Source: Thalassotalea sp. 273M-4 (GTDB lineage Bacteria > Pseudomonadota > Gammaproteobacteria > Enterobacterales > Alteromonadaceae). Taken from it: a stretch of 64,000 bases of DNA. The first letter of the stretch is position 1; the number at the start of each line of letters is the position of its first letter. A program made the translations under genes and the position numbers. Shown one piece after another: positions 24,179 to 50,893 of this stretch. Where the stretch lies: NCBI RefSeq assembly GCF_041410465.1, contig NZ_CP166961.1:930001-994000 (forward strand), in the 5' to 3' direction. The notes under the pieces were generated by a model that was not told the origin of the DNA, made no database searches, and worked only from the letters and a program-made list of their open reading frames with translations.

Positions 24179-24925
24179 ATGAGATTGAAGCCATCAGTGT
24201 GTTTGCTGAGTTTATGCGTTAGCCTGCCGAGCTATGCAACTCAAATAGTTAAAAAATCCAATAGCGGTATTTGCCACACGGTTGAAAGTCCTTATTATCA
24301 GCAAACTAAAAATTTCATCGCTTTTCCAAAGCTTTCTGACTGTTTAGATTCTGGTGGCAGATTAGCTAAAAATACTCAATCTTTTAACAACATACAGCCA
24401 GCCTTAAAGACCACACATGAAGCCTCTTCTTGGCAGAGCAATAAAGCCCTAAATTATTCTCGCGATCAATTTGGCAAAGGTTGGGAGGATTCAGATTCGG
24501 ATTGTCAAAATACTCGAATGGAGTTGTTGATTGGCTATTCTTTATCAAGTGTGCACTATAAAACAGCTAAAAGTTGTCAGGTCACCTATGGTAAATGGGT
24601 TTCACCTTTTACCGATAAAACCATATACCACGCATCGGACATAGACATCGACCATATTGTGCCTTTGCATTGGGCATGGGAGCACGGTGCCCGTGAATGG
24701 CCTTTAAATAAACGAATAGAATTTGCTAATGATCCTGCAAACCTCTTGAGTGTGGAAGCGTCATTAAACCGACAGAAAGGGGCGAAAGACATCTCTGAGT
24801 GGCTACCACCAAAAAATCAGTGTCAGTATATCGACAGCTTTAACAAGGTCGTAAAAGCCTATAAATTAGGGTCATCGCAAACCGAACAAAAGCTTAGCCA
24901 TGTAAAGCGCCAATATTGTAGTTAG
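24179..24925 (+). CDS. Secreted HNH-type (DUF1524-like) endonuclease
   Basis: Exported protein of 248 residues: a signal peptide (MRLKPSVCLLSLCVSLPSYA) then a cysteine-containing domain with HNH nuclease motif DIDHIVPLHWAWEHGA (about residue 155) and FANDPANLLSVEASLNRQKG, which supply the metal-binding His, Asn and Asp/His. The family includes extracellular nucleases that use environmental DNA. A possible role is nutrient scavenging; no partner genes are adjacent. The gene lies on the chromosomal side of the island. Confidence 0.85.
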   Translation: MRLKPSVCLLSLCVSLPSYATQIVKKSNSGICHTVESPYYQQTKNFIAFPKLSDCLDSGGRLAKNTQSFNNIQPALKTTHEASSWQSNKALNYSRDQFGKGWEDSDSDCQNTRMELLIGYSLSSVHYKTAKSCQVTYGKWVSPFTDKTIYHASDIDIDHIVPLHWAWEHGAREWPLNKRIEFANDPANLLSVEASLNRQKGAKDISEWLPPKNQCQYIDSFNKVVKAYKLGSSQTEQKLSHVKRQYCS

Positions 24926-30278: not shown

Positions 30279-31043
30279 ATGAACTATAAGAATACAAAAC
30301 ATAAAACTCACTCTAACTCACGCTATAAAGGTTACCCTGTACTTAGTCAACAAGGCCCTCTTCTTAAAAATTGTTTAAAAGCCATTTTTAAAACACTGAA
30401 AAAAGCAACAGATGAGTATCCTCGCTCATGTGCTATTCGCTTTGATTTAAAGTTACCTGATTATCTAGCAGATATTGATAGTGCTGTTATTTCACGATTT
30501 ACTGAGGCATTGAAATACCTGATAAAGCAAGATTTAAACAATAAGCGCAAGGCAAACAATAGAGTGCACAAGTGCCAGCTTCGATATGTTTGGGCCAGAG
30601 AAATTAGCGAGAATGCAGAAGTGCCGAAACCGCATTATCATGTATTAATTTTATTGAATAAAGATGCTTACAACTGCGTAGGAAAATATGATGCTCTCGA
30701 TGGTAATATGGCAGCCAGGATTAAAAGGGCCTGGGCCAGTGCACTTAAGATTGCTTTATCTGAGATTGGCGGATTAGTATACTTTCCAGATAACTGTCTT
30801 TATATTCTAATTAAAAAATCAGATAAATCAGATAAATCAGATAAATCAGATAAATCAGATAAATCAGATAAATCAGATAAATCAGATAAATCAGATAAAT
30901 CAGATAAATCAGATAAATCAGATAAATCAAATGACTTTGATAAAATCTTTCCAAAGTTAATGAAAAGAACCAGTTACTTTGCAAAGGTAGCAACTAAAGA
31001 GTTTAATGGTAGAACCAATAGCTTTGGTTACAGTCAGAAGTAA
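30279..31043 (+). CDS. YagK/YfjJ-type (inovirus Gp2-like) protein with SDK repeat linker
   Basis: 254 residues of the YagK/YfjJ C-terminal-domain family found in P4-like islands. The conserved core is visible: LRYVWAREISENAEVPKPHY, the HYH motif of VPKPHYHVLILLNKDAY (HUH-like), RIKRAWASALKI, GGLVYFPDNCLYIL and the end RTSYFAKVATKEF. Between the last two sits a Lys-Ser-Asp tract encoded by twelve 9-base repeats, not normal for the family. Its start is under an RNA hairpin. It probably acts in replication or nicking of the element; HUH activity is inference. Confidence 0.75.
   Translation: MNYKNTKHKTHSNSRYKGYPVLSQQGPLLKNCLKAIFKTLKKATDEYPRSCAIRFDLKLPDYLADIDSAVISRFTEALKYLIKQDLNNKRKANNRVHKCQLRYVWAREISENAEVPKPHYHVLILLNKDAYNCVGKYDALDGNMAARIKRAWASALKIALSEIGGLVYFPDNCLYILIKKSDKSDKSDKSDKSDKSDKSDKSDKSDKSDKSDKSDKSNDFDKIFPKLMKRTSYFAKVATKEFNGRTNSFGYSQK
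30816..30932 (+). repeat. 9-bp microsatellite, 12 perfect copies in frame
   Basis: AAATCAGAT repeated twelve times without error (30816-30923), then one altered copy. It is in frame with the YagK-type gene and encodes a Lys-Ser-Asp repeat. As the unit is three codons, slippage changes linker length but never the frame. Confidence 0.97.
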
Positions 31044-31352
31044 AATTGAATCCAACCGTTAAAACCAGTTTTGGTCATGTAAAGCTTAATTACCCGTCAT
31101 GCTAACTAAGGTTTATTGTGAATAATTGCATTTTTATAAGTGCTAACAATAGTTCGTTAGAATGAATAAACAAAATATCCATCATGAAAAATCAATATTC
31201 AGGTTCGATTTTAACTTACCTGGAAAGTAAATTATTTGATAATTGAGTTGGATATTTTTTTATAGGTAGGCTAAGTTACTAAATATTATAATAAAAAGGA
31301 GCGGACAAAACGTGTCCGCCATCCTCTTTATGCTGACGTTAACTGATGTCAA
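31044..31352. other. Intergenic gap before the WYL operon
   Basis: 309 AT-rich bases between the YagK-type gene and the WYL regulator. No gene, RNA or strong terminator is seen. The promoter for the following operon must lie here. Confidence 0.5.
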
Positions 31353-32252
31353 TTGAAGAGAGAAAAGGATTTGACAGATATTAAATTAGCCGAGCGTCTC
31401 GCTGAAATTATAGGTATGTTAAACAATGGTGAGGGTATTAACACATCGTTGTTGGCAGAAAGGTTTAATGTCTCCCAAAGAACCATCCAGCGTGATATAC
31501 ATCAGAGACTTAGTTTTCTTGATATTGATAAAAGTCAGCAGTTATGGAGTCTCAAAAAAAATAAAGCAGGAAAGCTTAATAAAGGGATTATTAACAAATT
31601 TGCTGATATTTGTGGGATTAAAGAATTATTCCCTACCATGGATGAACACTTCTTAAAAGAACTCACGGATGACGAATCTACCTCTCCTTACTTAGTAAAA
31701 CCCCTCAATTACGAAGAATTTATTATGCCGACGTATCGGCATCAATTCAAAAAGTTAGCAAACGCTATCAAGTCACAATATCAGATCGATTTTTTCTACA
31801 ACGGTAAAGAGTATAAAAAAATCGAGCCATATAAATTAATTAGTTATCAAGGTTATTGGTATTTGGCTGGAGTTGACTCTCAAAAGATCAAAACATTTCA
31901 AGTTGGCTTGATTGAAATGCTATGGACTTCGAATGTCTATTTCGAAAAGTCATCGAAAATTGATGAAAAAATACGTCAAGACGAAACAATTTGGATAGGC
32001 GAAGAAAAATTTGAGGTAAAACTTAAAGTCAATTCGAGCATTAGCCATTATTTTAAAAGGAGGAAAATTTTACCGGAACAAAAAATAGTAGAGGCATTAC
32101 CTGAGGGAAGTTTAATGATAACAACCCAAGTAGTGAATCAAAAGCAGGTTTTATCACTTATAAAATGTTGGCTACCCAATATTTATATTGTATCCCCTGC
32201 TTCAATGAGAAGTGCTTTGACATCAGAATTAAAAAAATATTTAAAAGAATAA
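31353..32252 (+). CDS. WYL-domain transcription regulator
   Basis: 299 residues: N-terminal DeoR/HTH_11-type winged helix (IIGMLNNGEGINTSLLAERF, then NVSQRTIQRDIHQRLSFLDI), then a WYL domain (QIDFFYNGKEYKKIEPYKLI, YQGYWYLAGVDSQKIKTFQV) and a C-terminal extension. WYL regulators such as BrxR and CapW control many anti-phage loci and answer nucleic-acid ligands. It opens a run of plus-strand genes with short gaps or overlaps, so it probably controls them. The TTG at 31353 is a weak start; an internal start is possible. The link to defence is inference. Confidence 0.85.
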   Translation: MKREKDLTDIKLAERLAEIIGMLNNGEGINTSLLAERFNVSQRTIQRDIHQRLSFLDIDKSQQLWSLKKNKAGKLNKGIINKFADICGIKELFPTMDEHFLKELTDDESTSPYLVKPLNYEEFIMPTYRHQFKKLANAIKSQYQIDFFYNGKEYKKIEPYKLISYQGYWYLAGVDSQKIKTFQVGLIEMLWTSNVYFEKSSKIDEKIRQDETIWIGEEKFEVKLKVNSSISHYFKRRKILPEQKIVEALPEGSLMITTQVVNQKQVLSLIKCWLPNIYIVSPASMRSALTSELKKYLKE

Positions 32253-32262
32253 AGAGGAATAT

Positions 32263-33126
32263 ATGGACATTAACTTAATACACGTATCTGCAGCGGTGAT
32301 TATTTTAGGGCTGATGAATATTATCAGTATTTTTTGGGTGAAGAGTCATCTTGACACTCAGAGCAAGATGCAAAAAGATTCTAATGAAAAACATATCAAT
32401 CAGCTAAATGAAAAAGTGTTAATCCTGGAAGCGACACTGGAAGAGTCAATCAAAAAAACAGTTGAACAACATCAGTTATCAAAGGATTCGATTGCATCAC
32501 TAATTGACTCTTCTTCGCAAGAAATAGCAGAGAAGATGACCTTTACTCAAAATGAGTTAGAGGTGGTTAAGCAAGAACATTCTCGAATGAAGAATGAACT
32601 TTTAATGGCTGTTAAACACTTTTCTGAAAAGAGCGCCATGAGTACGAACAACGCCATCCAAAAACTTCAAGAGTCGAATAAAACCTTATCATTTGAACGT
32701 AAACAAGATTGGCATTCAGGGTTAGAACAATTGACTAGTCTGATTGCATCTCTTCGTATTGAAAACCTTATAGAGATCACTAATGAGCTTGCCAAACATC
32801 AAGAGTTAAGTGTTGATACTGACGAGTTCACTAAGCAACTGGGTGATTGTAAAGTTTTAAAAATAACGGATAAGCATTCAGGGCAAGTTACCGAAGTGTT
32901 TTACGAAAATGGAATTAAGCGAAGCAGTGATACCTTTGATGGCGATCTTCTCAAATACCAAATGTTTTTTAATGAAGATGGTAAGCCAGAAAAAGGGCTA
33001 GAGTTCGACAAACAAGAGCGCATTATATTTGAATATTTATACGATGATGCCGGCGAAATTCATCAAAGAACCGATGTCACTTACGATGAAAATGGCAATA
33101 AATCAGAACAAGTAAAAGCATATTAA
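32263..33126 (+). CDS. Membrane-anchored coiled-coil protein with YD/MORN-like tail
   Basis: 287 residues. An N-terminal membrane helix (VSAAVIILGLMNIISIFWV) precedes a coiled coil (about residues 30-190) and a C-terminal part with short repeats of the YD or MORN type (SGQVTEVFYENGIKRSSDTF, KQERIIFEYLYDDAGEIHQR, VTYDENGNKSEQV). Such tails often bind proteins or membranes. It starts ten bases after the WYL gene with AGAGG upstream. No named family. Confidence 0.7.
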   Translation: MDINLIHVSAAVIILGLMNIISIFWVKSHLDTQSKMQKDSNEKHINQLNEKVLILEATLEESIKKTVEQHQLSKDSIASLIDSSSQEIAEKMTFTQNELEVVKQEHSRMKNELLMAVKHFSEKSAMSTNNAIQKLQESNKTLSFERKQDWHSGLEQLTSLIASLRIENLIEITNELAKHQELSVDTDEFTKQLGDCKVLKITDKHSGQVTEVFYENGIKRSSDTFDGDLLKYQMFFNEDGKPEKGLEFDKQERIIFEYLYDDAGEIHQRTDVTYDENGNKSEQVKAY

Positions 33127-33139
33127 GGGAGTAATAACA

Positions 33140-33553
33140 ATGTACTTAAGTGAACTAAATATTGGCGAGAAGAAAAACTTTTTAGAGTTAGCGCATTACA
33201 CAATGGGGTTAAATGGTTCCCATAAATTTGAAGAACAACAAGTCCTAAGTGCATTCGAACAGGAATGTCAACTAAAGGGATATAAACCTCAGAAGCAAAA
33301 TGAGATTGATAATGTTATTAAAGTAATTTCTAAGGCCTCATGCCGAACGCGAAAAATATATGTAATTGAATTGTTTGGGATAATGCTCGCAGATGGAAAC
33401 GTCTGTGAAGATGAAAGTAATTTTATGACAGAACTCGGTAAACACTTTGATATTGATGAATATGAACTTCGAAAAATAAAGCGATGGGTCATCAATATGA
33501 ATGAATTGGTATTAGAAGGTTATCAAATATTGAAGAAGGAGGTCATATGTTAG
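33140..33553 (+). CDS. TerB-like protein
   Basis: 137 residues. The core RKIYVIELFGIMLADGNVCE, then DESNFMTELGKHFDID and ELRKIKRWV, is the TerB (tellurite-resistance-type) helical fold with its conserved acidic D.....E positions. TerB domains occur in membrane-linked stress and phage-response systems. An AGGGAG box precedes the start. The end overlaps the next gene by seven bases, so the proteins are probably produced together. Function in this operon unknown. Confidence 0.75.
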   Translation: MYLSELNIGEKKNFLELAHYTMGLNGSHKFEEQQVLSAFEQECQLKGYKPQKQNEIDNVIKVISKASCRTRKIYVIELFGIMLADGNVCEDESNFMTELGKHFDIDEYELRKIKRWVINMNELVLEGYQILKKEVIC

Positions 33554-34509
33554 GTAAAGTTTGTAGTTGGTTCTGTGATGGAGTCGATTATTTGTCCGAA
33601 AAGGTAAGCGATGGAATCGATTATCTAAGTAATGTCGTAGTCGGCGGAGTAACTTATTGCGTTAACAAAGTTCAAAAAACTTGGGCTTCAATGAACGGAG
33701 CAGACATAGCCGCTAAAGCTGAACAGCTCTATGAACAAACTAAGGAAAAGTTAATCGATGCTGAGAAAAATTTTACTGAAAATGTATCCTCTTTAACAGC
33801 ACAAATGAATGATCAAGTCGGGAAATTGAACAGAGTCAAAGCGGAAATTCATGACGTGCATTTTAAACGTTTTCTTCAATTAGCTAACCGGCTTCACAAT
33901 GTCACAGTAAAAGGTCAGCCGTTTAATGAATTGTTTGATGATTCAGAGTTTAAACACAAAGAGACAATACAGGTTAGAGCTAAACATAAGCTACTTGAAA
34001 TAGACTTTAACAATATGTCTTTAGGTGAAAAACTTCAGATGTATTTTACTTTTGGTTGGAGCTCCAAGCAAAAGGCTAAGAAGAGCTTAGCAAATGTTGA
34101 AGATGAAGAGAAAAGAATTGACTCTGAAATTGCTAAACTCAACTCACATATAAAAAAATTGGAGCAAGTAAAAAACTCCATTATGGAAGTCTCGATCTAT
34201 TTTGATGAGCTTATAGGCAGCTATGAAAGTTTATTAAAACGTTTTGAATATGGGATCCAAACACAACGTTTTAAACAAATGGCGCTATCTGACAATGTTT
34301 TTTCTGCCAAGTTAGATTTTAGGTTAATGCCAATTGTGCACATTCAAGAATTCCAAGCGCTTTTTAACATGTCCCTCGTTTTGAAGAAAATGGCATCTTT
34401 AGGTTATTTATCTGATAAAGAAGAGCAAGTGGAAGTGTCAGGCTCTGATCTCGAGCAAGCTGTTGCATTACGTAACAACGTCAGAAACCTATTTCAAAAT
34501 GTCGCATAA
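33547..34509 (+). CDS. Coiled-coil protein, unknown
   Basis: 320 residues. The N-terminus has paired repeats of the form DGVDYLSEKVSDGIDYLSNVV, an amphipathic or membrane-touching segment, followed by long helical regions (LSSLTAQMNDQVGKL-like, EEKRIDSEIAKLNSHIKKLE). An AAGGAGG-type box lies directly upstream, overlapping the TerB-like gene. No family recognised; the tightly packed order suggests a complex with the TerB-like protein. Confidence 0.7.
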   Translation: MLGKVCSWFCDGVDYLSEKVSDGIDYLSNVVVGGVTYCVNKVQKTWASMNGADIAAKAEQLYEQTKEKLIDAEKNFTENVSSLTAQMNDQVGKLNRVKAEIHDVHFKRFLQLANRLHNVTVKGQPFNELFDDSEFKHKETIQVRAKHKLLEIDFNNMSLGEKLQMYFTFGWSSKQKAKKSLANVEDEEKRIDSEIAKLNSHIKKLEQVKNSIMEVSIYFDELIGSYESLLKRFEYGIQTQRFKQMALSDNVFSAKLDFRLMPIVHIQEFQALFNMSLVLKKMASLGYLSDKEEQVEVSGSDLEQAVALRNNVRNLFQNVA

Positions 34510-34520
34510 GGATAATGTTT

Positions 34521-36278
34521 ATGGCAGAAAAGTATAGACAAGAAGTCTTAGAGGCCGAAGAGGTGATGAAAAGGTTGGAAAATGCCTCTCCCTTGCAGGC
34601 GAGTAAAGTTCTGATCGATATGGAACTTCACGATCAAAAAGAGTCATTAGAGATACTAAATGGCATATATCAAGATTTCAAAACGAATCAGAATGTGGTT
34701 GATGAATTGATCACACCTATTGGCCTCAATGTATTAGATAGTATCATCACACATAAAAGCCTTAAACTTAACCGAACGGGATTAACAGCTACGAGGCTAT
34801 GGAGTGAAATTAAAGGATTCGAATATTCTTCAGCAACGATTAAAGCTGAAGTTTTTTCAGCAAAACAACAATTGGAGGCGATGAGGGAACCATCTGAATA
34901 CAAAAGATCAACAATCGTTCAAGATCAGAAGTTGAAAAAGCATAAAGAAAGTAATACTGAGACTGATGGTTCGATTAAAAATGAAATAGATGGCAGTGAT
35001 CTTAATAGAGAAAGTAACTCATCCTCAAATGACAGCGTGGATACAGATCATTTAGAAAGTGCTAAAAGCTTTTCAGATAAATATGGCGGCAATCCTTTTA
35101 TATCCGATAAAGATTTAAAGGATATAGCCAATCATGACGACAATTTAGCTTCAATTTCAGCGGCTCAAAACCGATCAAAAAATGCAGGGACCTTTCAGGA
35201 TATTAAGGACAGGAAAGATGCGTTACTTCAGAGGCAAGAAGAAGGAAATTTGACTGCCTCAGAACAAAAGGAACTCGATAAAATCAATGATAAGTTTCCT
35301 GAAGGAAGTCTCGAAGCCGGGATTGAACTTGAGAATGAAGCCTCGCAGAAAAACTTCGAAAAAATGCAAAAGGTCGCTAGAGAAAATGCGCTGAATAACA
35401 AAGCTCATGTGGCTAAGAAAGCTGGTATAAAAGCAGCTGAACAAACTGGTTATCAAGCATTGGGACACGCTATTATTTTACTTATAAAGCCTGTTTTTTA
35501 TGAGTTGAATGATGCAATAAAATTTGGCATTGAAAAAGGTGTTGGTGCCAAAAGCGTGACTGAGGGGTTAAAAATTAGATTTAATCGGGTGCTAGCCTAT
35601 TTAAAGAAAGAAGTAATACCTCTCTTAAAAAAAAGTTTAGGTGATTTTTGCCAAAACTTTTTTAAAGTACTTATTGATGGAATAATGAACCTGGTAACAG
35701 GGTTATTTAAGTCTTTAATGAAGATATTATCGGAAGGTTTTTCAGCCTTGGTAGGCGCTTTCAAAATACTAGCCAAGTCAGATGATGAGATGTCTAAAGC
35801 AGAAAAATCAGATACAATTTTAAAGCTCTTTTCTGCGACAGTAGTGACTTTTGTTGTCTTCTATTTTGAATCAACTATTGTTTCTGCCATTCCTATTGAT
35901 TTCTTAAAAGACATTATTTTGTCTTTGCTAAGTGGTGTTGCATCGACAATAGTTGTGTATATGTTGGATAAGGCGGATTTCTTCTCGGTGAAGTTAGAAA
36001 AGCGTACTAAAGCAGTAAAGGACATTTTTGAGCAAAGAATTAGGCAAATTAAAGAAAATACTGATGCTTTTGAAGCCGCAACCATAGAGAAGTTAGCAAA
36101 AGATAGACTTAAGTTTAAGCTACTATCTGATGAATTAAATCAAGCAATCGAAAGTAACGACAACCCAAATCAAGCGATCGATAAAATTGCCGATTTTATG
36201 AAGCTGGATTTAAAAATAAAGTCGACTGATGATTTTATTCATCTGCTTGAATCAGAAAGTGTACTCGTTATTAACTAG
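34521..36278 (+). CDS. Large membrane protein of the WYL/TerB operon, unknown
   Basis: About 585 residues. Residues 1-150 are helical and charged, 150-290 are low-complexity and acidic, and the C-terminal third is hydrophobic: amphipathic helices around 375-410 (IDGIMNLVTGLFKSLMKILS) and two strong membrane segments at about 440-490 (LFSATVVTFVVFYFES, IILSLLSGVASTIVVYML), followed by a cytoplasmic-looking tail. AAGGA lies eight bases before the ATG at 34521; the ATG at 34515 is too close to it. A plausible membrane effector of the operon, but no family or active site is recognised. Confidence 0.7.
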   Translation: MAEKYRQEVLEAEEVMKRLENASPLQASKVLIDMELHDQKESLEILNGIYQDFKTNQNVVDELITPIGLNVLDSIITHKSLKLNRTGLTATRLWSEIKGFEYSSATIKAEVFSAKQQLEAMREPSEYKRSTIVQDQKLKKHKESNTETDGSIKNEIDGSDLNRESNSSSNDSVDTDHLESAKSFSDKYGGNPFISDKDLKDIANHDDNLASISAAQNRSKNAGTFQDIKDRKDALLQRQEEGNLTASEQKELDKINDKFPEGSLEAGIELENEASQKNFEKMQKVARENALNNKAHVAKKAGIKAAEQTGYQALGHAIILLIKPVFYELNDAIKFGIEKGVGAKSVTEGLKIRFNRVLAYLKKEVIPLLKKSLGDFCQNFFKVLIDGIMNLVTGLFKSLMKILSEGFSALVGAFKILAKSDDEMSKAEKSDTILKLFSATVVTFVVFYFESTIVSAIPIDFLKDIILSLLSGVASTIVVYMLDKADFFSVKLEKRTKAVKDIFEQRIRQIKENTDAFEAATIEKLAKDRLKFKLLSDELNQAIESNDNPNQAIDKIADFMKLDLKIKSTDDFIHLLESESVLVIN

Positions 36279-36363
36279 GTGGCTTTTAGCACAAAAATAT
36301 TTTAAATAGGTTATTCATTTCTTTTAGAAATGCATAATTAGCAAAAATAAAAAGAGAATCTAA

Positions 36364-37071
36364 ATGTTAGGTATATCATCAGGTTGGTCTCTACTTGCAA
36401 AGACCGCTTTTACATCTTTAGCAATTGATTTAGATAAAGATGCTAAGCAATTTATTATTCGAAACATGCTATTTAAAAAAATGGTCAGCTATGCCTTAGA
36501 GCAAAAGTTTGGTGACGATGTATCACTCAAGAGCGTTGAGCAACAAGGAGTAATTGTTGAGCACAAGACTTATGGTGAGATATTAGTCTTGCCTAAGAAG
36601 CTAACCATTTTTCGTGAAAAAGTTGAATTTGTGACAGATGTCGAGTTATTGACTAATAAGACAACATCGGAGTCGATTACAACGTTAATATCAGGTGTTG
36701 TCCAAGGTGTTGCTAGTAGCGCTTTATTTGCATTGTCTGCTGGCTACTTAGGGGCATCAGAAATTAGTCAGTCTTTATTTAAAATAGGTTCATCGATGGT
36801 GCACTTAGTGAACGGTAAAGGTGATAAGTTAGGCCTTGGAAAAGATAGAGTATTTTCGCTAGAACTTCCTGACAGTATTAAACACTCAAACCTAGTATCT
36901 TTATTCTTCGGTGACGAAGAGCAATCTATCGCTATGGCATTAGACATGCGTAATGGTGATTTTGCTATTGCTATTGCTGTTGAAAACTTTGATATGGAAA
37001 AGCTTGAGGCGGTAAAAACAAAAAGTATGGCGCTGATTGGTCAAACCATCCTAGGGAAAGTAGCCGCTTAA
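36364..37071 (+). CDS. Protein with glycine/alanine-rich hydrophobic segment, unknown
   Basis: 235 residues. A central stretch (about residues 107-145: TLISGVVQGVASSALFALSA, then GYLGASEISQSLF) may enter a membrane; the flanks are mixed alpha/beta (ELPDSIKHSNLVSLFFGDEE, DMRNGDFAIAIAVENFDM). AAGAGAATCTAA precedes the start. It lies 85 bases after the large membrane gene and is the last plus-strand gene before a bidirectional hairpin, so it is likely the last gene of the same operon. Not recognised. Confidence 0.65.
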   Translation: MLGISSGWSLLAKTAFTSLAIDLDKDAKQFIIRNMLFKKMVSYALEQKFGDDVSLKSVEQQGVIVEHKTYGEILVLPKKLTIFREKVEFVTDVELLTNKTTSESITTLISGVVQGVASSALFALSAGYLGASEISQSLFKIGSSMVHLVNGKGDKLGLGKDRVFSLELPDSIKHSNLVSLFFGDEEQSIAMALDMRNGDFAIAIAVENFDMEKLEAVKTKSMALIGQTILGKVAA

Positions 37072-37127: not shown

Positions 37128-37598
37128 CTATCTATCCCAATGCCGCCAGGTATTGGCACCAAGGTAGCTTTTCGCTTCATCTTTTAACATCCACATAAAC
37201 GAGCAGGCGTTATGTAGGTCACCATTTAAGCAATAGGCAGAGAACTGATGGCAGTTATTTGATAGCGTGTTGTATTCCGTTTTTGTTCCGAGCATATCAA
37301 GCGCACGTTCAGCTACACACTCATCACCACAGGCATACTCATCTTTGGAAGATACGTAGATGTTTAGTGCGGTGGTACCGTCGGTGAAACCTGTAGGATT
37401 AACTCGTTCAATAACCCCCTTGCCATTTAAATGGATGATTTGGTTATTACCCACATAAATGCCACTGTGATCGGCGTAGCCACAGCACATGTCACAATAA
37501 ACGACACTGCCTATCTTAGGGTTTACGCTATCGCGAAATTCATCGACGAGGCTTTCAACCAGATTGATCGCTGGTCCGAGTAAAAAATATTTAAACAT
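37128..37598 (-). CDS. LRAT/NlpC-P60-like protein
   Basis: About 156 residues. The pattern GSVVYCDMCCGYADHSGIYV, then NQIIHL and later LSNNCHQFSAYCL, matches lecithin:retinol acyltransferase-type papain-fold enzymes, with the histidine in ADHSGIYVG and the nucleophile in NNCHQF. Such proteins act as thiol acyltransferases or lipases, and similar ones occur on mobile elements. AAGGA is seven bases before the ATG at 37598; the longer frame to 37640 overlaps the recombinase end and is unlikely. It follows the recombinase gene by 13 bases. Confidence 0.7.
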   Translation of the reverse strand: MFKYFLLGPAINLVESLVDEFRDSVNPKIGSVVYCDMCCGYADHSGIYVGNNQIIHLNGKGVIERVNPTGFTDGTTALNIYVSSKDEYACGDECVAERALDMLGTKTEYNTLSNNCHQFSAYCLNGDLHNACSFMWMLKDEAKSYLGANTWRHWDR

Positions 37599-37611
37599 AG
37601 AGTATTCCTTA

Positions 37612-38172
37612 TTAGATTTCGAGTTCAACAAAGTCAGCATCGATTTCGGCTTGGGTCATGCCGATGTATCTGAGCGTGACGGCCTCAGAGCTGTGCCTGA
37701 GCATCTTCATCACTCTGGCGATGTCTTTGGTGTTTTTATACAAGTGATAACCACGGGTTTTACGCATGCTGTGGGTACCAAGTGATAAGCCAAGCTCTTC
37801 ACCGACTTTAGCGAATGCTTCGGACACGGCGCGACGGCTTAATGGTTTAGGTGCCTGGTTTTCCGTACCTTGACTGCGATAGGATTGAAACAAGTAAATA
37901 TGAGAAGGGTGCTTCTCTTTGATTTTACTGATAACACTCAGCGCTTTGTTGTTAAGTTGGATGTTGGCAACTTTGCCGGTCTTGCCTTCTTTTAGGATAA
38001 GCCTATCGCCTTGTATGTCGGAAAACTTAATCGACAGTAAATCCGATATTCGAAGAGCCAGGTTTAAACCAATATTCCAAATGTCTGCCATTTGCTCACT
38101 GCAACGAATGGACAGCAGATGGCTTATGAGATGGACTTTTTCAAATTGCGTGATCGCTTGAACTTCGGCCAT
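37612..38172 (-). CDS. Minimal tyrosine recombinase
   Basis: 186 residues, essentially only the catalytic domain of the tyrosine recombinase (XerD-like) family. The active-site set is complete: Arg in LALRISDLL, Lys in KTGKVAN, HSMRKTRG, LRHSSEAVTLRYIG with the His and the Tyr nucleophile. The core-binding domain is absent. Several inverted repeats lie just upstream. It differs from the island integrase and may catalyse another rearrangement or resolve multimers. Confidence 0.9.
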   Translation of the reverse strand: MAEVQAITQFEKVHLISHLLSIRCSEQMADIWNIGLNLALRISDLLSIKFSDIQGDRLILKEGKTGKVANIQLNNKALSVISKIKEKHPSHIYLFQSYRSQGTENQAPKPLSRRAVSEAFAKVGEELGLSLGTHSMRKTRGYHLYKNTKDIARVMKMLRHSSEAVTLRYIGMTQAEIDADFVELEI

Positions 38173-39847: not shown

Positions 39848-42043
39848 ATGAATAGTCAATCGAATTCGTTTTGGTTTGTAGGTGCATCCTACGGTAAAGG
39901 TAGTGAGGACCAAACTGAGCGCTTCCTCAATGATGCCGTTTGGCAAAACGGCTATGAGGATAAATATCTTGATGTCGTGCGTAGTATGCAGCCGGGCGAC
40001 AAGATTGCTATTAAATCGTCCTACACACGAAAGCGAGAGCTCCCTTTTGAGAATAAAGGCCAGACTGTTTCAGTAATGGGGATCAAAGCTATTGGTGTGA
40101 TTACCCGTAACCATGGCGATGGTCGCTTTGTCGATGTTGAGTGGCAACCACGCTTTGAGCCTGTTAATGAATGGTATTTCTATACCAATCGCAGCACTAT
40201 TTGGCGCGTCTCTCCCGATGACTGGATGACAGAGGGGCTTATTGACTTCACTTTCAATAAAATGCCACAGGATATAGATCGTTTTCGCAATGCTCCCTTT
40301 TGGAAAGAACGCTTCGGTGATACCCCTGTCGATAAACAGCGTTTTAAGTGGACTCAGTTCTATGAAGAGTTTGCCGACAAGCTGTTAGCTTACAAAGGTA
40401 ATCGTGCTTCGTTGATGACCGCCATTCACGACTTACCAAACAAAATTGGAAGCATTTCAGTCCTTCAAGATCAGCCTGAGGAAGGTACGAAAGAATTACT
40501 AGATGATATTTGTCCATTTACCGTATTTGGCCTATTTAATAGAGGCATCACTGATGCTAATCGAATAGCGATCGCAAACGAACTTGCTACTTTTTTGAAA
40601 GTTGAAGCGCCAGTTCCTAACTCTTTTGAAGGTATCCCCGTTGTTAATAATCAGCGCTCTTGGTTTTTTGGATACAAATACCGAAGGGGGGAACACGACA
40701 TTGAGGCGTTATGGAACCTTTTTGAGGCAGCCATAGAACACGCAAATAATTCAGAAACTGATACCGCAGAGGTACTTTATGACGCCTATGAAACGGCGAC
40801 TAAATGCTGGGGAACCGGCTGGAACCTTTCGATGGGGCTCTATTGGATTCGACCATGGAAGTACTTGACTCTTGATGGCCAGTCTCAAACATATATTACT
40901 AAAAAATTGGGTTTAGAAATTGGCAAAAATGGTGAAAAAGGCCGTTGTAGCTCAAAAGATTACTTCGGCCTGATTGACGTTCTGGAAACACGATTTCAAG
41001 AGGACGCCTACCCCGTACACTCTTTTCCAGAACTATCGCTGTCGGCTTGGCTGTTTAAGGACATCGACACATCCGCACATCCAAATGCTACAGACTTTGA
41101 GGATGAGGAGCTATCGGCAGAAGAAAACGAAGTTGCTGAACAGACCGCTCCTATTGAGCAGTATACAATTGACGACATTATTGCCGATGGTTGTTTTCTT
41201 GAGAGAGAAAGCATCGCTAAAATAATTACTCAGCTTAGACAGAAGAAAAATATTATTCTCCAAGGTCCTCCGGGAACTGGTAAAACATGGCTCGCGAAGA
41301 AACTTGCTTATGCGTTAATGGGCCAAAAGGACGAAAACTCCCTGCGTGCCGTTCAGTTTCACCCAAACCTATCTTATGAGGATTTTGTGCGTGGTTGGAG
41401 ACCATCTGGTGAAGGCAAATTGACGCTCGTTGATGGCCCATTCTTGGAAATGATTAACGAAGCAAAAAAAGATGCCAGCATCAAACACGTAGTCGTTATC
41501 GAAGAAATTAACCGGGGGAACCCTGCTCAGGTTTTTGGCGAAATGCTCACCTTATTAGAGGCTGACAAGCGCACACCAAGCGAAGCTTTAGAGCTTAGTT
41601 ATCGTCGAACTGAAGGCGAAAGAATCCATATTCCCGCTAACCTTTATGTTATTGGTACTATGAATATTGCCGACCGCTCATTAGCACTTGTCGACCTTGC
41701 TCTACGTCGCCGTTTCGCATTTTTTGATCTTAAGCCTACGCTGGGTGATGTATGGCGCAATTGGGTTCATAATAAGTCTGGTATTGATGACGATTTTTTA
41801 CAGTTAATTGAGCAGCGCATAGTCTCTCTAAATAACGAGATATCAAAAGATCGAAACTTGGGTCCTCAGTTTAAAATCGGCCACAGTTATGTAACGCCAC
41901 CTTTAAATGCAAAGATAGAAGATGCTGGAGCATGGTTTCAAGGTGTCGTAGAAACTGAAATTGGGCCGCTTCTTGAAGAATACTGGTTTGACGATATAGA
42001 ACGCGCTATGAAGTCCAAAGACGCTCTGATTGAAGGCATTTAA
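39848..42043 (+). CDS. mcrB: McrB-type AAA+ GTPase of a type IV restriction system
   Basis: 731 residues. The AAA+ motor is clear: Walker A LQGPPGTGKTWLA (about residue 473), Walker B HVVVIEEINRGNPAQVFGEM (about residue 546) and IGTMNIADRSLALVD (about residue 602), the McrB form of the sensor. The N-terminus (FWFVGASYGKGSEDQTERF, then GDKIAIKSSYTRKR) could be an EVE/PUA-like modified-base reader. McrBC cuts DNA carrying modified cytosine. It overlaps mcrC by one base (TAATG). Confidence 0.94.
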   Translation: MNSQSNSFWFVGASYGKGSEDQTERFLNDAVWQNGYEDKYLDVVRSMQPGDKIAIKSSYTRKRELPFENKGQTVSVMGIKAIGVITRNHGDGRFVDVEWQPRFEPVNEWYFYTNRSTIWRVSPDDWMTEGLIDFTFNKMPQDIDRFRNAPFWKERFGDTPVDKQRFKWTQFYEEFADKLLAYKGNRASLMTAIHDLPNKIGSISVLQDQPEEGTKELLDDICPFTVFGLFNRGITDANRIAIANELATFLKVEAPVPNSFEGIPVVNNQRSWFFGYKYRRGEHDIEALWNLFEAAIEHANNSETDTAEVLYDAYETATKCWGTGWNLSMGLYWIRPWKYLTLDGQSQTYITKKLGLEIGKNGEKGRCSSKDYFGLIDVLETRFQEDAYPVHSFPELSLSAWLFKDIDTSAHPNATDFEDEELSAEENEVAEQTAPIEQYTIDDIIADGCFLERESIAKIITQLRQKKNIILQGPPGTGKTWLAKKLAYALMGQKDENSLRAVQFHPNLSYEDFVRGWRPSGEGKLTLVDGPFLEMINEAKKDASIKHVVVIEEINRGNPAQVFGEMLTLLEADKRTPSEALELSYRRTEGERIHIPANLYVIGTMNIADRSLALVDLALRRRFAFFDLKPTLGDVWRNWVHNKSGIDDDFLQLIEQRIVSLNNEISKDRNLGPQFKIGHSYVTPPLNAKIEDAGAWFQGVVETEIGPLLEEYWFDDIERAMKSKDALIEGI

Positions 42044-45240: not shown

Positions 45241-48200
45241 ATGCAGTTTGTAAAAAATGGACCCGATGTACCCGAGGCATTAATTCAAGCCCATGAAGAA
45301 GGAAATGTGGTTTTTTTTTGTGGCGCAGGAATATCTTTTCCTGCAGGTTTACCCGGTTTCGGAGGTTTAGTTTGGGAACTTTACAAACTCATGGGTATAA
45401 CTCCTGATGAAGTGCAACAACAAGCATTAAAAGCAGGACAGTTTGATACAGCTGTCTCCTTGCTAGAGGCGGTCAAACAAACTAATGAATGGCGACGTGA
45501 TGTACGTCATAAGATGGCTGCTCTTCTAGAGCCAGATTTTTCAAAAGCTAATGCGACTTCAACTCATCGAGCGCTACTACAACTTTCTTTAACGAAAAAT
45601 CAGAAAATGAGGTTAATCACTACCAATTTTGATCGTGTTTTCTTTAAAGCAAGTGAAGAGGAGAAACTCGAACTTCCTATTTTTAAAGCACCGTTGTTAC
45701 CGGTGCCCAAAAATAGGTGGGACGGTTTAGTGTATTTACATGGGCTCTTACCTGATTCTGTAAATGGATCTGAATTAGATCATTTAGTTGTTTCGAGTGG
45801 TGACTTTGGATTAGCGTATTTAACAGAACGTTGGGCAGCTCGATTTGTAAGTGAATTATTTAGAAGTTATACCGTCTGTTTTGTTGGTTATAGCCTTAAT
45901 GATCCAGTCCTTCGCTATATGATGGATGCATTAGCAGCTGATAGATTGTTGGGGGAGTCGCCCCCAGAAATGTTTGCTTTTGGAGAATATAGTAAAGGTA
46001 AGTTCGACGATGAGTTCAAACGTTGGAAAGCTAAAAACGTTACACCCATATTGTATAAAAGCCATAAGAATCACTATTATTTGCATAGAACGTTAATAAA
46101 TTGGTCAAGTACATACAAAGATGGATTAAGTGGCAAAGAACAAATTGTGGCCACGACAGCACCGTTTACACCTACTAGCTCTGACTATTACAACGAGTAT
46201 GCAAGGAGATTAGCTTGGGCTTTAAGTCATCCAAGTGGAATTCCAGCCAATACATTTTCAAAATTAATCCCATCACCGCCGTTAAGTTGGCTGTCAGTGT
46301 TAGATTCAATTGAATTTAAAAATCAAGAATTAAGCCGCTTTGGTGTTTATGATGCTAGCATTAATTCTGATGCGACTTTTAGTTTATTTTCTCGACCAGC
46401 AAAATGTTCAAAAGCTCCACTAATGACACTTTCTCAATCACCCTACAGTGAGACTCAATGGGATAATATTATGCGAGGTCTTGGTAACTGGTTAGTATGC
46501 CACCTTAATAATCCTGACCTTGTATTATTTGTTCTTAAAAGAGGCGGAATATTAAACAGTTACCTTCAGAGTTTAATTGAACAAAAAATATCTGAACAAA
46601 GAAAGCAGAAACAAAATGTAAATAGCGCCTTCTTTGAGAAATTAAAACTTATAAGTGAAGATGCTGTATTAAGTGAGGAGATGCTAACAGTTTGGGATTT
46701 AGTTTTAGCTGGCTATTGTATTAATTCTGGACATCGTCATAACCTGTATAGCTGGGCTGATGAATACCAAAAAACAGGGATAACACCAACTCTAAAGAGC
46801 AGACTGAGAAAGGCTTTAAGTCCTGTTGTCATTTTTAGAAAGCCAATAGGTTTGGCATTTTATGACGAGAAAGCAGGAATCAGAAAATATCTTTCTTGGG
46901 ATATAGATTTAAGTTCCTCATTTGCACATTCGGCTATCAAACATATATCTAGAGTTGATACCTGGAAAAGCGATGTATCTCGTATCTTTTCTGACGTGAA
47001 TGCCTTATTGATTGAAGTGATGGAATTAAAAGCTGTTTTAGGGGGAGTCGATGAACATACTGACTATACCTATGTAGAACAGCCATCAATTTCTGAACAC
47101 CCACAAAATAAGGATTATAACAACTGGACTGTATTGATTGACCTAGTCAGAGATTCTTGGATTTCATTACTAGATAGTAACGCTAGCAAAGCAAAAAATA
47201 TCGTACGTATTTGGTGGGAAACGCCGTTTCCAATTTTTAAAAGGCTAGCCTTTTTTGCAACTTCCAAGCTGGACGCCATTTCGCCAGAAGAAATCAATAA
47301 TTGGTTAGAGCAAGAAGACTCTAAATGGCTGTGGAGTGTATCTTCACAAAGAGAACTTCTTCAGCTACTCCCTCATTTAGCTGGGCACTTTGATGTTAAA
47401 AATGCCGAACGTTTATTAAATAATATTTGTTCGGGTCCAAACAGAATATGGTATAGAGAAGATTTAACAGATGAGGCGTTTGGTCATTTAGTAAACAGAG
47501 AAAAATGGTTACGACTAGAGAAGTTGAAGCTGGGCGGACTCATATTTAGTAAAAAAGCAGAACAAGTTTATCAAAATATTAAACAGGAAAACCCAAACTG
47601 GGAATTAGCGGACGACCAAAGAGAGGAGTTTCCATTCTGGATGGGCGAAGGAAGTTATTATAAGGAAACTTCGCCTAGCCCCACTGGTGAAACAGAATTA
47701 ATAGCCTGGCTGAAATCTAAACCTGATCATGATCATTGGGATGAAGATGATTGGTCAATAAGGTGTAAAAATGATTTCATGGTTGCCAAAAATGCACTAT
47801 TAGCTCTTGAACAAGATAACATCTGGATACCTGAACGTTGGAGGGAAGCTTTAAACATTTGGACTGAATCAAAGAGGTTAAGCATTAAAGCTTGGCGGTC
47901 TTTATCCAACGTTTTTCTTGAAATGGACGAGCATAAGTTAAAAGATATTGCATGGAACTTATCACGATGGTTAAAAGCCAATACTACTTGCAGAGCTCTG
48001 CCAGAACAGCAGTATTTTTCTTTTGTAGATAAATTATTAGCTATCCCGTATGACTTTGATAATGAGCCAAATGATGTAATTACCTCAGCGATAAACCACC
48101 CTATAGGTATTACCGCTGAAAGCTTATTTAGACATTGGTATGCCGATAAACCTAACGATAACGATGGACTGGATGATAAATATAGGAAAAGATTCGAGCT

Positions 48201-49008
48201 GTTAGTTTCTAATGAAAACGAAGTTTATTCTTTAGCTAAGGTCATTGTTGCAACAAATGCGTTGTCACTATACAGAGTTTCGCCGGGATGGACCCAAAAA
48301 CATGTGTTACCTCTATTTGATTGGGGCAATTCAAACTCAGCAAGTTTAGTCTGGAGGAGTTACTTATGGTCACCAAGATTACATGAATCATTTTTGATAA
48401 AAATCAAGACAAACCTTTTATACACTGCAAATTACTATGAACAGCTCGGTCAAGCCAAAGAGCAATATGCCCGGTTTTTGACATATGTTGCTCTCCAACA
48501 ATATGAAGATTTTAAAGTCACCGAATTAGCGAACGCCTTTAGAAACCTACCTATTGAATCTTTGCGTTATGTGGTTTCTTCTTTAAATGATGCGTTATCA
48601 AATTCCGGTGATAGACATAATGAATACTGGGAACATCGCGTAAAAGTATTTTTAAATAAAATTTGGCCAAAAGATATTACGCCATCCGAACAGACAGTTA
48701 GCCAATTAGCATTACTTTGTATCAATGCTAAAGAGTTTTTTGTATATACTTTAAAATTGTTAAAACATTACTTAACAAGAATTGACGACACGGAGTACAT
48801 TGTAAATAAATTAAAATCTAGTGAAATAATTAGGCTATTCCCGAAAGAATCATTGGATTTTCTTGATATGCTTATCACTGATGAGCCTAGATTTAGACCA
48901 CCGTCCAAGCTAAGAGATTGTCTAGATGAAGTTTTAGAGCAAGATCCTGATTTACATACAGAGCAAGCCTATCAACGGCTCAATAATTTACTTAGGCGGT
49001 ATGATTAA
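45241..49008 (+). CDS. Large SIR2-domain defence-type protein (DUF4020-like)
   Basis: 1,255 residues. The N-terminal SIR2 domain is complete: NVVFFCGAGISFPAGLPGF (NAD-binding GAG), RLITTNFDRVF, VYLHGLLP (catalytic His) and FVGYSLNDPVLRYMMDAL. Large SIR2 proteins such as DSR1/DSR2 deplete NAD on phage infection. The remaining 950 residues are helical and resemble the C-terminal part of the SIR2-DUF4020 group; no ATPase motif is seen, so this is unlike SIR2-HerA. An AGGGAG box precedes the ATG. It lies next to the McrBC and R-M relics, a defence setting. Abortive-infection role inferred. Confidence 0.85.
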   Translation: MQFVKNGPDVPEALIQAHEEGNVVFFCGAGISFPAGLPGFGGLVWELYKLMGITPDEVQQQALKAGQFDTAVSLLEAVKQTNEWRRDVRHKMAALLEPDFSKANATSTHRALLQLSLTKNQKMRLITTNFDRVFFKASEEEKLELPIFKAPLLPVPKNRWDGLVYLHGLLPDSVNGSELDHLVVSSGDFGLAYLTERWAARFVSELFRSYTVCFVGYSLNDPVLRYMMDALAADRLLGESPPEMFAFGEYSKGKFDDEFKRWKAKNVTPILYKSHKNHYYLHRTLINWSSTYKDGLSGKEQIVATTAPFTPTSSDYYNEYARRLAWALSHPSGIPANTFSKLIPSPPLSWLSVLDSIEFKNQELSRFGVYDASINSDATFSLFSRPAKCSKAPLMTLSQSPYSETQWDNIMRGLGNWLVCHLNNPDLVLFVLKRGGILNSYLQSLIEQKISEQRKQKQNVNSAFFEKLKLISEDAVLSEEMLTVWDLVLAGYCINSGHRHNLYSWADEYQKTGITPTLKSRLRKALSPVVIFRKPIGLAFYDEKAGIRKYLSWDIDLSSSFAHSAIKHISRVDTWKSDVSRIFSDVNALLIEVMELKAVLGGVDEHTDYTYVEQPSISEHPQNKDYNNWTVLIDLVRDSWISLLDSNASKAKNIVRIWWETPFPIFKRLAFFATSKLDAISPEEINNWLEQEDSKWLWSVSSQRELLQLLPHLAGHFDVKNAERLLNNICSGPNRIWYREDLTDEAFGHLVNREKWLRLEKLKLGGLIFSKKAEQVYQNIKQENPNWELADDQREEFPFWMGEGSYYKETSPSPTGETELIAWLKSKPDHDHWDEDDWSIRCKNDFMVAKNALLALEQDNIWIPERWREALNIWTESKRLSIKAWRSLSNVFLEMDEHKLKDIAWNLSRWLKANTTCRALPEQQYFSFVDKLLAIPYDFDNEPNDVITSAINHPIGITAESLFRHWYADKPNDNDGLDDKYRKRFELLVSNENEVYSLAKVIVATNALSLYRVSPGWTQKHVLPLFDWGNSNSASLVWRSYLWSPRLHESFLIKIKTNLLYTANYYEQLGQAKEQYARFLTYVALQQYEDFKVTELANAFRNLPIESLRYVVSSLNDALSNSGDRHNEYWEHRVKVFLNKIWPKDITPSEQTVSQLALLCINAKEFFVYTLKLLKHYLTRIDDTEYIVNKLKSSEIIRLFPKESLDFLDMLITDEPRFRPPSKLRDCLDEVLEQDPDLHTEQAYQRLNNLLRRYD

Positions 49009-49106: not shown

Positions 49107-50309
49107 TCATGGACTGAATTTATTGATGGAGTTACTCCACCAATTCATCATTTCTTTTCTTTGTTCAAGGTATTGAGCTCGATTATAGGCAGCTTCTACC
49201 TGGTTTTCTTTGGCATGTGCGAGGGCTGCCTCAATAACATGCGGTGCAAAACCTTGCTCGTTGAGCGTTGTGCTTGCAAGAGATCTCAGACCATGGCTGA
49301 CGAGTCGTCCTTCAAACCCCATGCGTTTTATCGCGGCGTTTGCTGTTTGAGTGTTACAGTGTGTTCTTGGATTCCGATCTGCGGGGAATAAGTGCTCACG
49401 ATGAGCACTTAGTGGTTTTAGTTTTTCTAAGATTTTCAGAATTTCCGGTGTTAGGGGAACGATATGTTCACGCTTTTTCTTCATGCGCTCAGCAGGAATA
49501 ACCCAAAGTTCATTTTCCCAGTCAACTTCTTCCCACCTAGCGCCAGCAGCTTCACTAGGTCGCACCATAGTGTGCAATTGCCACAAAATAAGGTATCTGG
49601 TTACTTTCTTAATATTAGCTTCAGAAATGGCTTCTAAGAGCTCAGGAAGCTCGTGAGGTTTAAGCGTTGGCATATTTGATTTAATCGGCTTTTTAAAAGC
49701 CGACTTTATGCCGGAAATCGGATTCGCCTTGATGATACCTGTATTGGCTGCAAACTCCATTATCTCGTTTAAGCGTTGGCTTAGGCGTTTTACTGTTTCT
49801 AAGCTTCCTTTAGCTTCAATAGGCTTTAGTACTTCAATTACAGAAGGTGCGTCTAGATCGTTTACATTTAGCTTGCCTAGCTGAGGCAGTATGTAGTTTT
49901 CCAGAGATCGCCATACATCAGTCGCATAATCATCAGATACTGAAGAACGCTTCACTTCAAACCAGTTTTTGATGACATTTTCAAAGATATGTTCAGTTTC
50001 GGCTATTTGCAGCTTTTTATTTTTTTCTCTTTCCTCTTTGGGATCTATGCCCAATTGCACAAGTTTACGAGCTTGTGTTGCTAACTCTCTGGCTTCAGCA
50101 AGTGAAATAGTAGGATAGCTGCCTAGGCCCATATTTAATCGGCGCTTTGTAATAGGGTGGCGATAGTTAAAATTCCAAAGTTTGGAACCTGTCTTTCTTA
50201 TTCTGATTTGTAAGTTAGGAGCAGCAGAGCGAACATAATCTTTATCTAGAGTCTGTAGGGCTTTTAACTGCCTGTCACTAGTAATAGGTTTTACGGTTTC
50301 TTTAGCCAT
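49107..50309 (-). CDS. Island integrase (P4-type tyrosine recombinase)
   Basis: 400 residues: N-terminal arm-binding domain (LQIRIRKTGSKLWNFNYRHP, then LGSYPTISLAEARELA), SAM-like core-binding domain and catalytic domain. The active-site residues are Arg in LHTMVRPSEAAGARW (about residue 250), HGLRSLASTTL (about 337), and LAHAKENQVEAAYNR with the His and the Tyr nucleophile (about 361-374). It lies 234 bases from the ssrA 3' end and is transcribed away from it, as usual. It should catalyse integration at ssrA. Confidence 0.95.
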   Translation of the reverse strand: MAKETVKPITSDRQLKALQTLDKDYVRSAAPNLQIRIRKTGSKLWNFNYRHPITKRRLNMGLGSYPTISLAEARELATQARKLVQLGIDPKEEREKNKKLQIAETEHIFENVIKNWFEVKRSSVSDDYATDVWRSLENYILPQLGKLNVNDLDAPSVIEVLKPIEAKGSLETVKRLSQRLNEIMEFAANTGIIKANPISGIKSAFKKPIKSNMPTLKPHELPELLEAISEANIKKVTRYLILWQLHTMVRPSEAAGARWEEVDWENELWVIPAERMKKKREHIVPLTPEILKILEKLKPLSAHREHLFPADRNPRTHCNTQTANAAIKRMGFEGRLVSHGLRSLASTTLNEQGFAPHVIEAALAHAKENQVEAAYNRAQYLEQRKEMMNWWSNSINKFSP

Positions 50310-50379
50310 CTAGATGTCCTGATTGTTTGCTCTGGTAGAATAGGTTTATCACGCGATATAGGATGAATGAACAGATTAT

Positions 50380-50429
50380 GGTATTCCAAAATATAGGTCA
50401 ATCAGTTTTGGAATACCAATTGGAATACC
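50380..50429. repeat. GGTATTCC/GGAATACC repeats at the right end, possible integrase or excisionase sites
   Basis: GGTATTCCAAAA at 50380-50391 is the exact inverse of TTTTGGAATACC at 50406-50417; TTGGAATACC recurs at 50420-50429, 12 bases on from the second. They lie between the integrase gene and attR. The 12-base spacing mirrors the left-end repeats. Role inferred. Confidence 0.6.
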
Positions 50430-50499
50430 CAAAGAGCTAGATTTAGCTAGATGCTAGTAGACGTTAATAGACAGGGTTTAGTGGTAAATCGTTGATTTT

Positions 50500-50546
50500 A
50501 GGCATAAAAAAAGACGTCCTGAGACGTCTTTAATTATGTAAGTGGT
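50500..50546. repeat. Right attachment repeat (attR) at ssrA 3' end
   Basis: Partner of 25481-25527: 39 identical positions in two blocks plus an eight-base divergent block at the loop of the terminator. It overlaps the last four bases of ssrA. Confidence 0.88.
50506..50532 (-). terminator. Current ssrA terminator, supplied by the island
   Basis: Stem AAAGACGT/ACGTCTTT with a six-base loop; on the minus strand a run of seven T follows. The stem matches the displaced terminator at 25487 but the loop differs, consistent with the element bringing its own copy. Confidence 0.85.
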
Positions 50547-50893
50547 GGAGCGGGGGGGAGTTGAACCCCCGTCCGAAAAACCTACATCCTCGGTACTACA
50601 TGTTTAGTCGTTCTTTTATTTAACCAGTCGGACCCCGAACGACAGGGTTCTTTCTGGTGAGCCTGATACGATTTCGCGGTTCACCCTCAGACAAGGTTCC
50701 CTCGCTAGCCCATTTAGTATGACCATCGCATCTCAAGTCAATAGGCGAGACTATGAGAGGATGGCTAGCATTATGCTGCTAGTGCGAACGTTTCGTCGTT
50801 TGCAACTATAGTTTTGCGGCTTTTTACCAGGCCAACCGCCCCTGGACATGCACCTTGGGTTTCGTGAATCCCGTCGAATCCTAAATCCGCCCC
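50543..50893 (-). ncRNA. ssrA: Transfer-messenger RNA (tmRNA)
   Basis: 351 bases. The 5' end GGGGCGG pairs with the 3' CCGCUCC before ACCA, forming the tRNA-like acceptor; the 5' segment continues GGATTCGACGGG as in other tmRNAs and the T arm is GGGGGTTCAACTCCCCC. The tag reading frame is A-N-D-E-T-F-A-L-A-A then TAA (about 50771-50803), so trapped proteins get the proteolysis tag ANDETFALAA. SmpB, the partner, is encoded about 700 bases away. The island is inserted precisely at its 3' end without changing the mature RNA. Confidence 0.97.

Follow-up and report, generated by a model that had tools for sequence, protein, structure and literature searches.

A conserved four-gene unit with a candidate membrane-bound HNH effector in Thalassotalea sp. 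273M-4

The DNA examined here is a window of 64,000 nucleotides from Thalassotalea sp. 273M-4 (contig NZ_CP166961.1, positions 930,001 to 994,000 of the forward strand), and all coordinates below refer to this whole stretch. At 31353..37071 it carries six genes, four of which (genes 2–5) are a conserved unit whose members co-occur beyond chance. On balance, and with some reserve, we read genes 2–5 as one system, that is, a membrane-tethered HNH DNA nuclease which would be gated by its partner proteins and aimed at foreign DNA. The reading draws on computed features, namely the unit and its order, the TerB and WYL identities, the HNH motif, the membrane helices, the restriction of two effector modules to the four-gene systems and the conflict between the ends and the core of the effector. 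The six plus-strand open reading frames (ORFs) lie in series where the preliminary description of this DNA had placed them, with spacings of 10, 13, −7 (an overlap), 5 and 85 bases:

31353..32252 (+): gene 1, WYL-domain regulator with helix-turn-helix (HTH), WYL and WCX domains, optional head of the operon (Pfam, neighbour count)
32263..33126 (+): gene 2, with a membrane helix at the N-terminus, a variable-length coiled coil and a conserved C-terminal MORN/YwqK-like tail (hydropathy, alignment, homologues)
33140..33553 (+): gene 3, TerB-fold protein (PF05099, profile matches, alignment)
33547..34509 (+): gene 4, long helical-hairpin/coiled-coil protein (alignment, AlphaFold2)
34515..36278 (+): gene 5, HNH-type protein with a membrane domain, likely effector, 587 amino acids (aa)
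34521..34718 (+): N-terminal module of gene 5, probable docking part (restricted to four-gene systems)
34896..35420 (+): HNH (His-Me finger) region of gene 5, with D-H at 35046-35051 (motif, predicted local distance difference test [pLDDT] values, profile match)
35421..35987 (+): membrane domain of gene 5, with hydrophobic helices at ~35826-35882 and ~35910-35966 (hydropathy)
35988..36275 (+): C-terminal module of gene 5, probable docking part (restricted to four-gene systems)
36364..37071 (+): gene 6, orphan ORF containing a single hydrophobic stretch, outside the conserved unit (no homologue)

Searching genome contigs with a profile of the gene 5 alignment yielded 25 loci. In 23 of them genes 2, 3, 4 and 5 are all present in the same order and on one strand, mostly with gaps of less than ~20 bases between them; the order is conserved in unrelated genomes. 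The unit is spread over three phyla, that is, Gammaproteobacteria and metagenome-assembled genomes (MAGs) of Bacteroidota and Bacillota; the complete loci include one Bacteroidaceae, one Bacilli and one Firmicutes MAG, where gene 2 was detected solely by an iterated profile and is backed by the alignment of its tail. The two exceptions are L017, in which the contig end falls inside gene 4, and L028 (Phocaeicola), in which gene 5 is in two pieces and is followed by an ORF weakly like gene 4. In L024, gene 5 is split across two ORFs. A first pass with single sequences did not detect gene 2 in L009, L023, L025 and L026; it was recovered by the iterated profile that includes those rows (for L009, via a search of all ORFs), and the C-terminal tail alignment supports it in L023, L025 and L026. 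The search of all ORFs also recovered genes 3 or 4 of L007, L010 and L012, missed at first because longer ORFs of the opposite strand had been kept. In L028 and L048, the gene 4-like labels also rest on the iterated profile, and the E-values overstate their strength.

The distribution of the system is patchy. Within the order of the source organism, 10 of 295 genomes have a relative of gene 5; the full four-gene form is found in the genome studied here, in G138 and in G175, six genomes carry other partners and G275 has pieces on short contigs. Gene 4 was detected in one out of 369 genomes of the class, which is the source genome itself.

Gene 5 is likely the effector, as an HNH-type membrane protein. 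Its motif has the form D-H ... N ... N-x-x-K and escaped the preliminary description, which had proposed the large membrane protein as an effector acting at the membrane. The window protein retains the D-H, the N and the K; among 19 diverse members, the D-H and the N are kept in all 19 and the K in 17. The predicted fold follows the beta-beta-alpha order (strands 172-177 and 209-213, helix 214-220, in 585-aa numbering), pLDDT is mostly ~76-94 over residues 131-290 and the region has a profile match to a GmrSD_C protein. The two membrane helices described before are also seen in our hydropathy scan, in which three overlapping stretches exceed the threshold. The HNH region is present in 25/25 effectors of four-gene loci and in 9/10 and 3/4 of two sets of relatives with other partners, and the membrane region in 25/25, 10/10 and 4/4, respectively. 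The role of effector suits this protein in part, and its motif makes the cutting of nucleic acid likelier than damage to the membrane. In this way, an anonymous "hypothetical membrane protein" becomes a candidate nuclease with testable catalytic residues.

Alternatively, gene 5 could permeabilise the membrane, with an HNH fold of structural or secondary importance and an ion channel beside some copies adding to the effect. This we consider improbable in view of the motif conservation given above, although in 13 of the 14 relatives with other partners the membrane region is the stronger match of the two, and L023 and L025 lack the HNH lysine. A gene of the Ion_trans family, moreover, adjoins 4/26 four-gene loci (L008, L015, L022 and G138) against an expectation of ~0.17, and the copy in G138 shares one base with the end of gene 5. 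The family is also found at one two-gene locus (G023), which brings the count to 5/28 with the genomes added post hoc. By locus, Ion_trans neighbours are listed for L008, L015, L022, L042 and L046.

The N- and C-terminal modules of gene 5 are present in all 25 effectors of four-gene loci and in none of the 14 relatives with other partners. They thus accompany genes 2–4, which makes them the obvious candidates for docking; we regard them as probable docking parts for these three proteins. An effector deprived of its two ends should, under this hypothesis, lose its partners. The relatives without the modules have partners of several kinds. The protein in L045 is small, begins with a hydrophobic stretch and has a TerB domain (PF05099, 5.5e-6), and proteins that share its cluster or profile take this position in L001, L002, L044, L046, L061, L062 and L063; the TerB domain of this partner is below the cut-off in L046 and was not seen in L001, L002 and L044. 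The partners in L047 and L048 are of the PDC-M40C and PDC-M09A types, respectively. In a Paraclostridium plasmid (L061:258-4725), a Sau3AI-type restriction gene is located two genes before the pair of a glycine-zipper protein and the effector.

In a Klebsiella plasmid (L064, 5439-7665), a relative of gene 5 directly follows a gene of SMI1/KNR4, an immunity family. Such an arrangement would suit a toxin-antitoxin or polymorphic-toxin-like unit, in which genes 2–4 are antitoxin or immunity partners of a nuclease directed at the cell itself, and so would the variable effector core and the name "Toxin-antitoxin system Yw..." given in the source to one relative of gene 2. Three partner genes retained across phyla exceed the needs of an antitoxin, and we find this explanation hard to favour.

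The ends and the core of gene 5 show different histories. For instance, P0045 and P0005 share 73% identity in the N module and 85% in the C module, with 23-37% in the part that lies between the two modules. In the tree of the ends, the window protein pairs with that of Shewanella L013 (P0044; support 94/91). A comparison of nine loci also places L013 closest to the window for genes 2 and 3 and, with three loci compared, for gene 1; for gene 4 it ties with others (39-45%). The relation is not reciprocal, as genes 3 and 4 of L013 have closer relatives at other loci than in the window. In the core tree, P0044 groups with P0046, P0049 and P0050 (support 100/99). Topology tests were made with each clade named from the other data set. 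The core data reject the pairing of the window protein with P0044 by 200 log units (p-AU 4e-7, where AU is the approximately unbiased test), and the clade of eight in the core tree is rejected by the ends data (p 0.006). The conflict is most simply read as recombination of the core, and faster change of the core may contribute to it. A core that seems to be swapped among relatives, with constant ends, would be expected of a weapon directed at invading DNA. In our judgement, effector cores exchanged between constant ends have seldom been documented for such systems.

The remaining members of the unit are the probable sensor and the adaptors. Gene 2 has one N-terminal membrane helix in a simple hydropathy scan and is probably a membrane sensor or scaffold. 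The preliminary description had seen in it an anchored coiled coil with a YD/MORN-like tail; the anchor holds and the tail corresponds to the conserved C-terminal part of the family in the alignment, while Pfam lends MORN itself little support (MORN_2, E 0.74 in one relative). The name given to some relatives in the source is "chemotaxis protein". Gene 4 belongs to a family with a conserved stretch around LTLGFxSRKKAKESL, and its AlphaFold2 model has a mean pLDDT of 67 with helices at 52-113 and 170-247.

Gene 3 is a TerB protein, as had been proposed, with PF05099 at E 1.3e-6 and 29.1 bits against a cut-off of 24.4. Its family profile matches 2h5n (E 0.0016) and 2ou3, the COG3793 tellurite resistance protein (E 0.05). 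With this domain in the unit, one may think of a Ter-type stress complex, in which metal or envelope stress would be sensed by TerB together with the membrane coiled coil, and the DNA processed by the HNH protein would be that of the cell itself. A Cronobacter relative is placed beside TerD, TerY-type, VWA and PP2C genes, and the lack of defence-gene enrichment in the flanks, described below, also agrees with it. The patchy distribution, the conflict of ends and core and the recurrent WYL neighbours suit a conflict system better, and a stress complex is in our opinion unlikely.

For the nuclease system that we prefer, the following mechanism is proposed. Genes 2–5 would hold an HNH nuclease at the inner membrane, where gene 2, with its membrane helix, long coiled coil and folded tail, would anchor the complex and sense, or act as a scaffold. 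The TerB protein and the coiled-coil protein of genes 3 and 4 may be adaptors that grip gene 5 via its N- and C-terminal modules. Once triggered, most likely by an invading element, the HNH core would cut DNA near the membrane. The WYL protein, if present, would control expression, probably as a repressor similar to BrxR/CapW. We infer the nuclease activity, the docking, recombination as the origin of the conflict between ends and core, DNA as the target, the triggering and the role of the system in defence. A bolder version, which we offer tentatively and with more doubt than conviction, is a new type of DNA immunity stationed at the membrane, with genes 2–4, as a complex of sensor and adaptors, docking by way of the constant end modules an exchangeable HNH-membrane warhead, different versions of which are swapped by recombination within one gene, the DNA being cut on entry and an ion channel taking part in some lineages.

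A defence role for genes 2–5 is plausible. It is suggested by the patchy spread, the conflicting histories of the effector, the WYL neighbours, the HNH effector, the kinship with PDC-M40B and the presence in the window of Dsr1 and restriction-type genes. The window itself has defence-type genes nearby, as had been described for it; as a general rule, the setting in a defence island is not supported. In detail, 121 dereplicated proteins of 130-1500 aa were collected within six genes of 21 of the 25 loci, excluding types of genes 1–5, and 5 of them match PADLOC members, versus 13 of 113 control proteins from eight stretches of one genome, that of the source organism. Since the flanks are not enriched, the case for defence rests on the nature of the parts and not on their neighbours. 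The flank census weighs against our reading, as do the lysine missing in two members and three results on the effector's history: the clade of four in the core tree is not rejected by the ends data (p 0.15), the core barely reaches rejection of the ends' clade of five (p 0.0495) and the core branches of P0045, P0047 and P0048 are very long.

In agreement with the preliminary description, the set does not correspond to a named defence system, and genes 1 and 5 alone match general or candidate defence models of PADLOC well. In detail, gene 1 matches WYL, genes 2 and 4 give weak coiled-coil matches and gene 5 matches PDC-M40B; genes 3 and 6 are without a PADLOC match (for gene 3, none at E <= 1). 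For genes 2, 4, 5 and 6, no Pfam family exceeds its cut-off, the NCBIfam scan added nothing specific for the operon proteins, and in PHROGs gene 1 matches one family of unknown function (1e-25), with no strong match for the other genes. Word searches of a paper library, judged by their hit lists, turned up no description of these genes as a set.

The closest kinship is to PDC-M40, a name that follows the usage in PMC11514479. The core of gene 5 matches M40B at E 7.8e-15 over residues 136-507, and for one of the relatives with other partners the match reaches 4.4e-83. For M40A, in contrast, model PDLC04629 finds nothing in the source genome and no M40A model matches any of seven proteins scanned at E <= 1, and M40C has no match at E <= 1 among these seven, gene 4 included, the rest of the genome not having been searched for it; the gene 4 family alignment compared with an M40C-type protein gives a probability of 0.2 of 100. 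The system of the window further adds the end modules of gene 5 and genes 2–4, and the PDC-M40B-type effector family gains a second and larger context.

Zorya type II has a membrane channel with a long ZorA coiled-coil tail, and its HNH protein is named ZorE. The layout of a long-coiled-coil membrane protein with an HNH effector is similar in the window, and the HNH protein of Zorya II is mentioned in PMC10952713. The operon differs in having no MotA/ExbB Pfam match and a ZorA match which is weak (E 0.0036) and confined to the coiled coil, and no match to ZorB was found among the seven proteins scanned. TerB is a component of Shango and Bunzi, according to the same paper; gene 3, in contrast, has no PADLOC match at the threshold given above and the other five genes match no Shango or Bunzi model, although whether a Bunzi model is in the set was not checked. 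With the GmrSD/DUF1524 HNH nucleases of type IV restriction, gene 5 shares the HNH motif and has a profile match, and PMC10952713 places DUF1524 among the His-Me finger nucleases, its motif being DHIYP. The differences are that gene 5 lacks a Pfam GmrSD_C match, the operon has no DUF262 match and the system is membrane-bound with TerB and coiled-coil partners.

A stand-alone GmrSD_C (DUF1524) HNH protein is encoded ~7 kb upstream of the operon at 24179-24925 (+), with PF07510 at E 3e-11 and a start that reads like a signal peptide. The value of 2e-31 for this protein was not used, because the iterated profile had absorbed it.

The gene at the head of the operon had been described as a WYL regulator, and Pfam bears this out with PF13280 (8.9e-9), PF25583 (2.3e-7) and PF08279 (4.3e-7), that is, WYL, WCX and HTH. 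By comparison with the relative in L045, which begins at that point, the true start may be the TTG at 31371 instead of 31353. WYL neighbours of the unit are recurrent and not obligatory. They adjoin 11/26 four-gene loci versus ~0.10 expected, with 40 WYL genes in these genomes; the count is 13/28 (0.12 expected) if G061 and G023 are added, both of which were picked after a WYL gene had been seen at a two-gene locus. The loci are partly non-independent (four Ferrimonas with one WYL type, and Shewanella groups), and as several of them are close relatives, the P-values for WYL and ion-channel adjacency are too small. Neighbours like gene 1 are found at L005, L006, L013 and L045, and other WYL types at L007, L009, L010, L012, L015, L022, L043 and L046. 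A WYL gene also stands first on a Raoultella plasmid that carries a different form of the effector.

As an HTH, WYL and WCX protein heading an operon, gene 1 resembles BrxR/CapW. According to PMC9122601, the WYL protein BrxR represses a defence island, and among its homologues 48% are found with known defence systems; PMC4012209 reports WYL domains combined with HNH or TerB domains. Gene 1 has no match to PDB sequences at E <= 0.01, and its membership of the BrxR/CapW subfamily is accordingly putative. The AT-rich DNA upstream of it contains a single imperfect repeat of 11 bases at 31225-31249, for which no chance level was computed, and no convincing operator was found for this gene.

Gene 6 had been counted as a member of the operon and has to be removed from it. 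Among 770 shared-word candidates drawn from 5.8 billion proteins it finds itself alone, and it is absent from every other locus examined and without a plasmid match.

Downstream of the operon, a gene with restriction-type matches at 39848-42043 (+; best PADLOC match REase_II, 4.8e-18) reads as McrB-like and is followed by a possible McrC-like gene (to 43170, +) with no PADLOC match at E <= 1e-5. A full-length SIR2 defence protein of the Dsr1 type is encoded at 45241-49008 (+; PADLOC Dsr1, 1206 bits). At 49107-50893, an integrase-like gene, identified by reading its sequence, lies beside a tmRNA with the tag ANDETFALAA; the two together likely mark an island end, and no second attachment site was found in the window. 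An LRAT/NlpC-like gene at 37128-37640 (−; PF04970, 1.3e-10) is convergent with the end of the operon. Finally, the gene at 30279-31043 (+) encodes a YagK/YfjJ-type protein (PF11726, 5e-46) with an in-frame run of ~12 Ser-Asp-Lys repeats.
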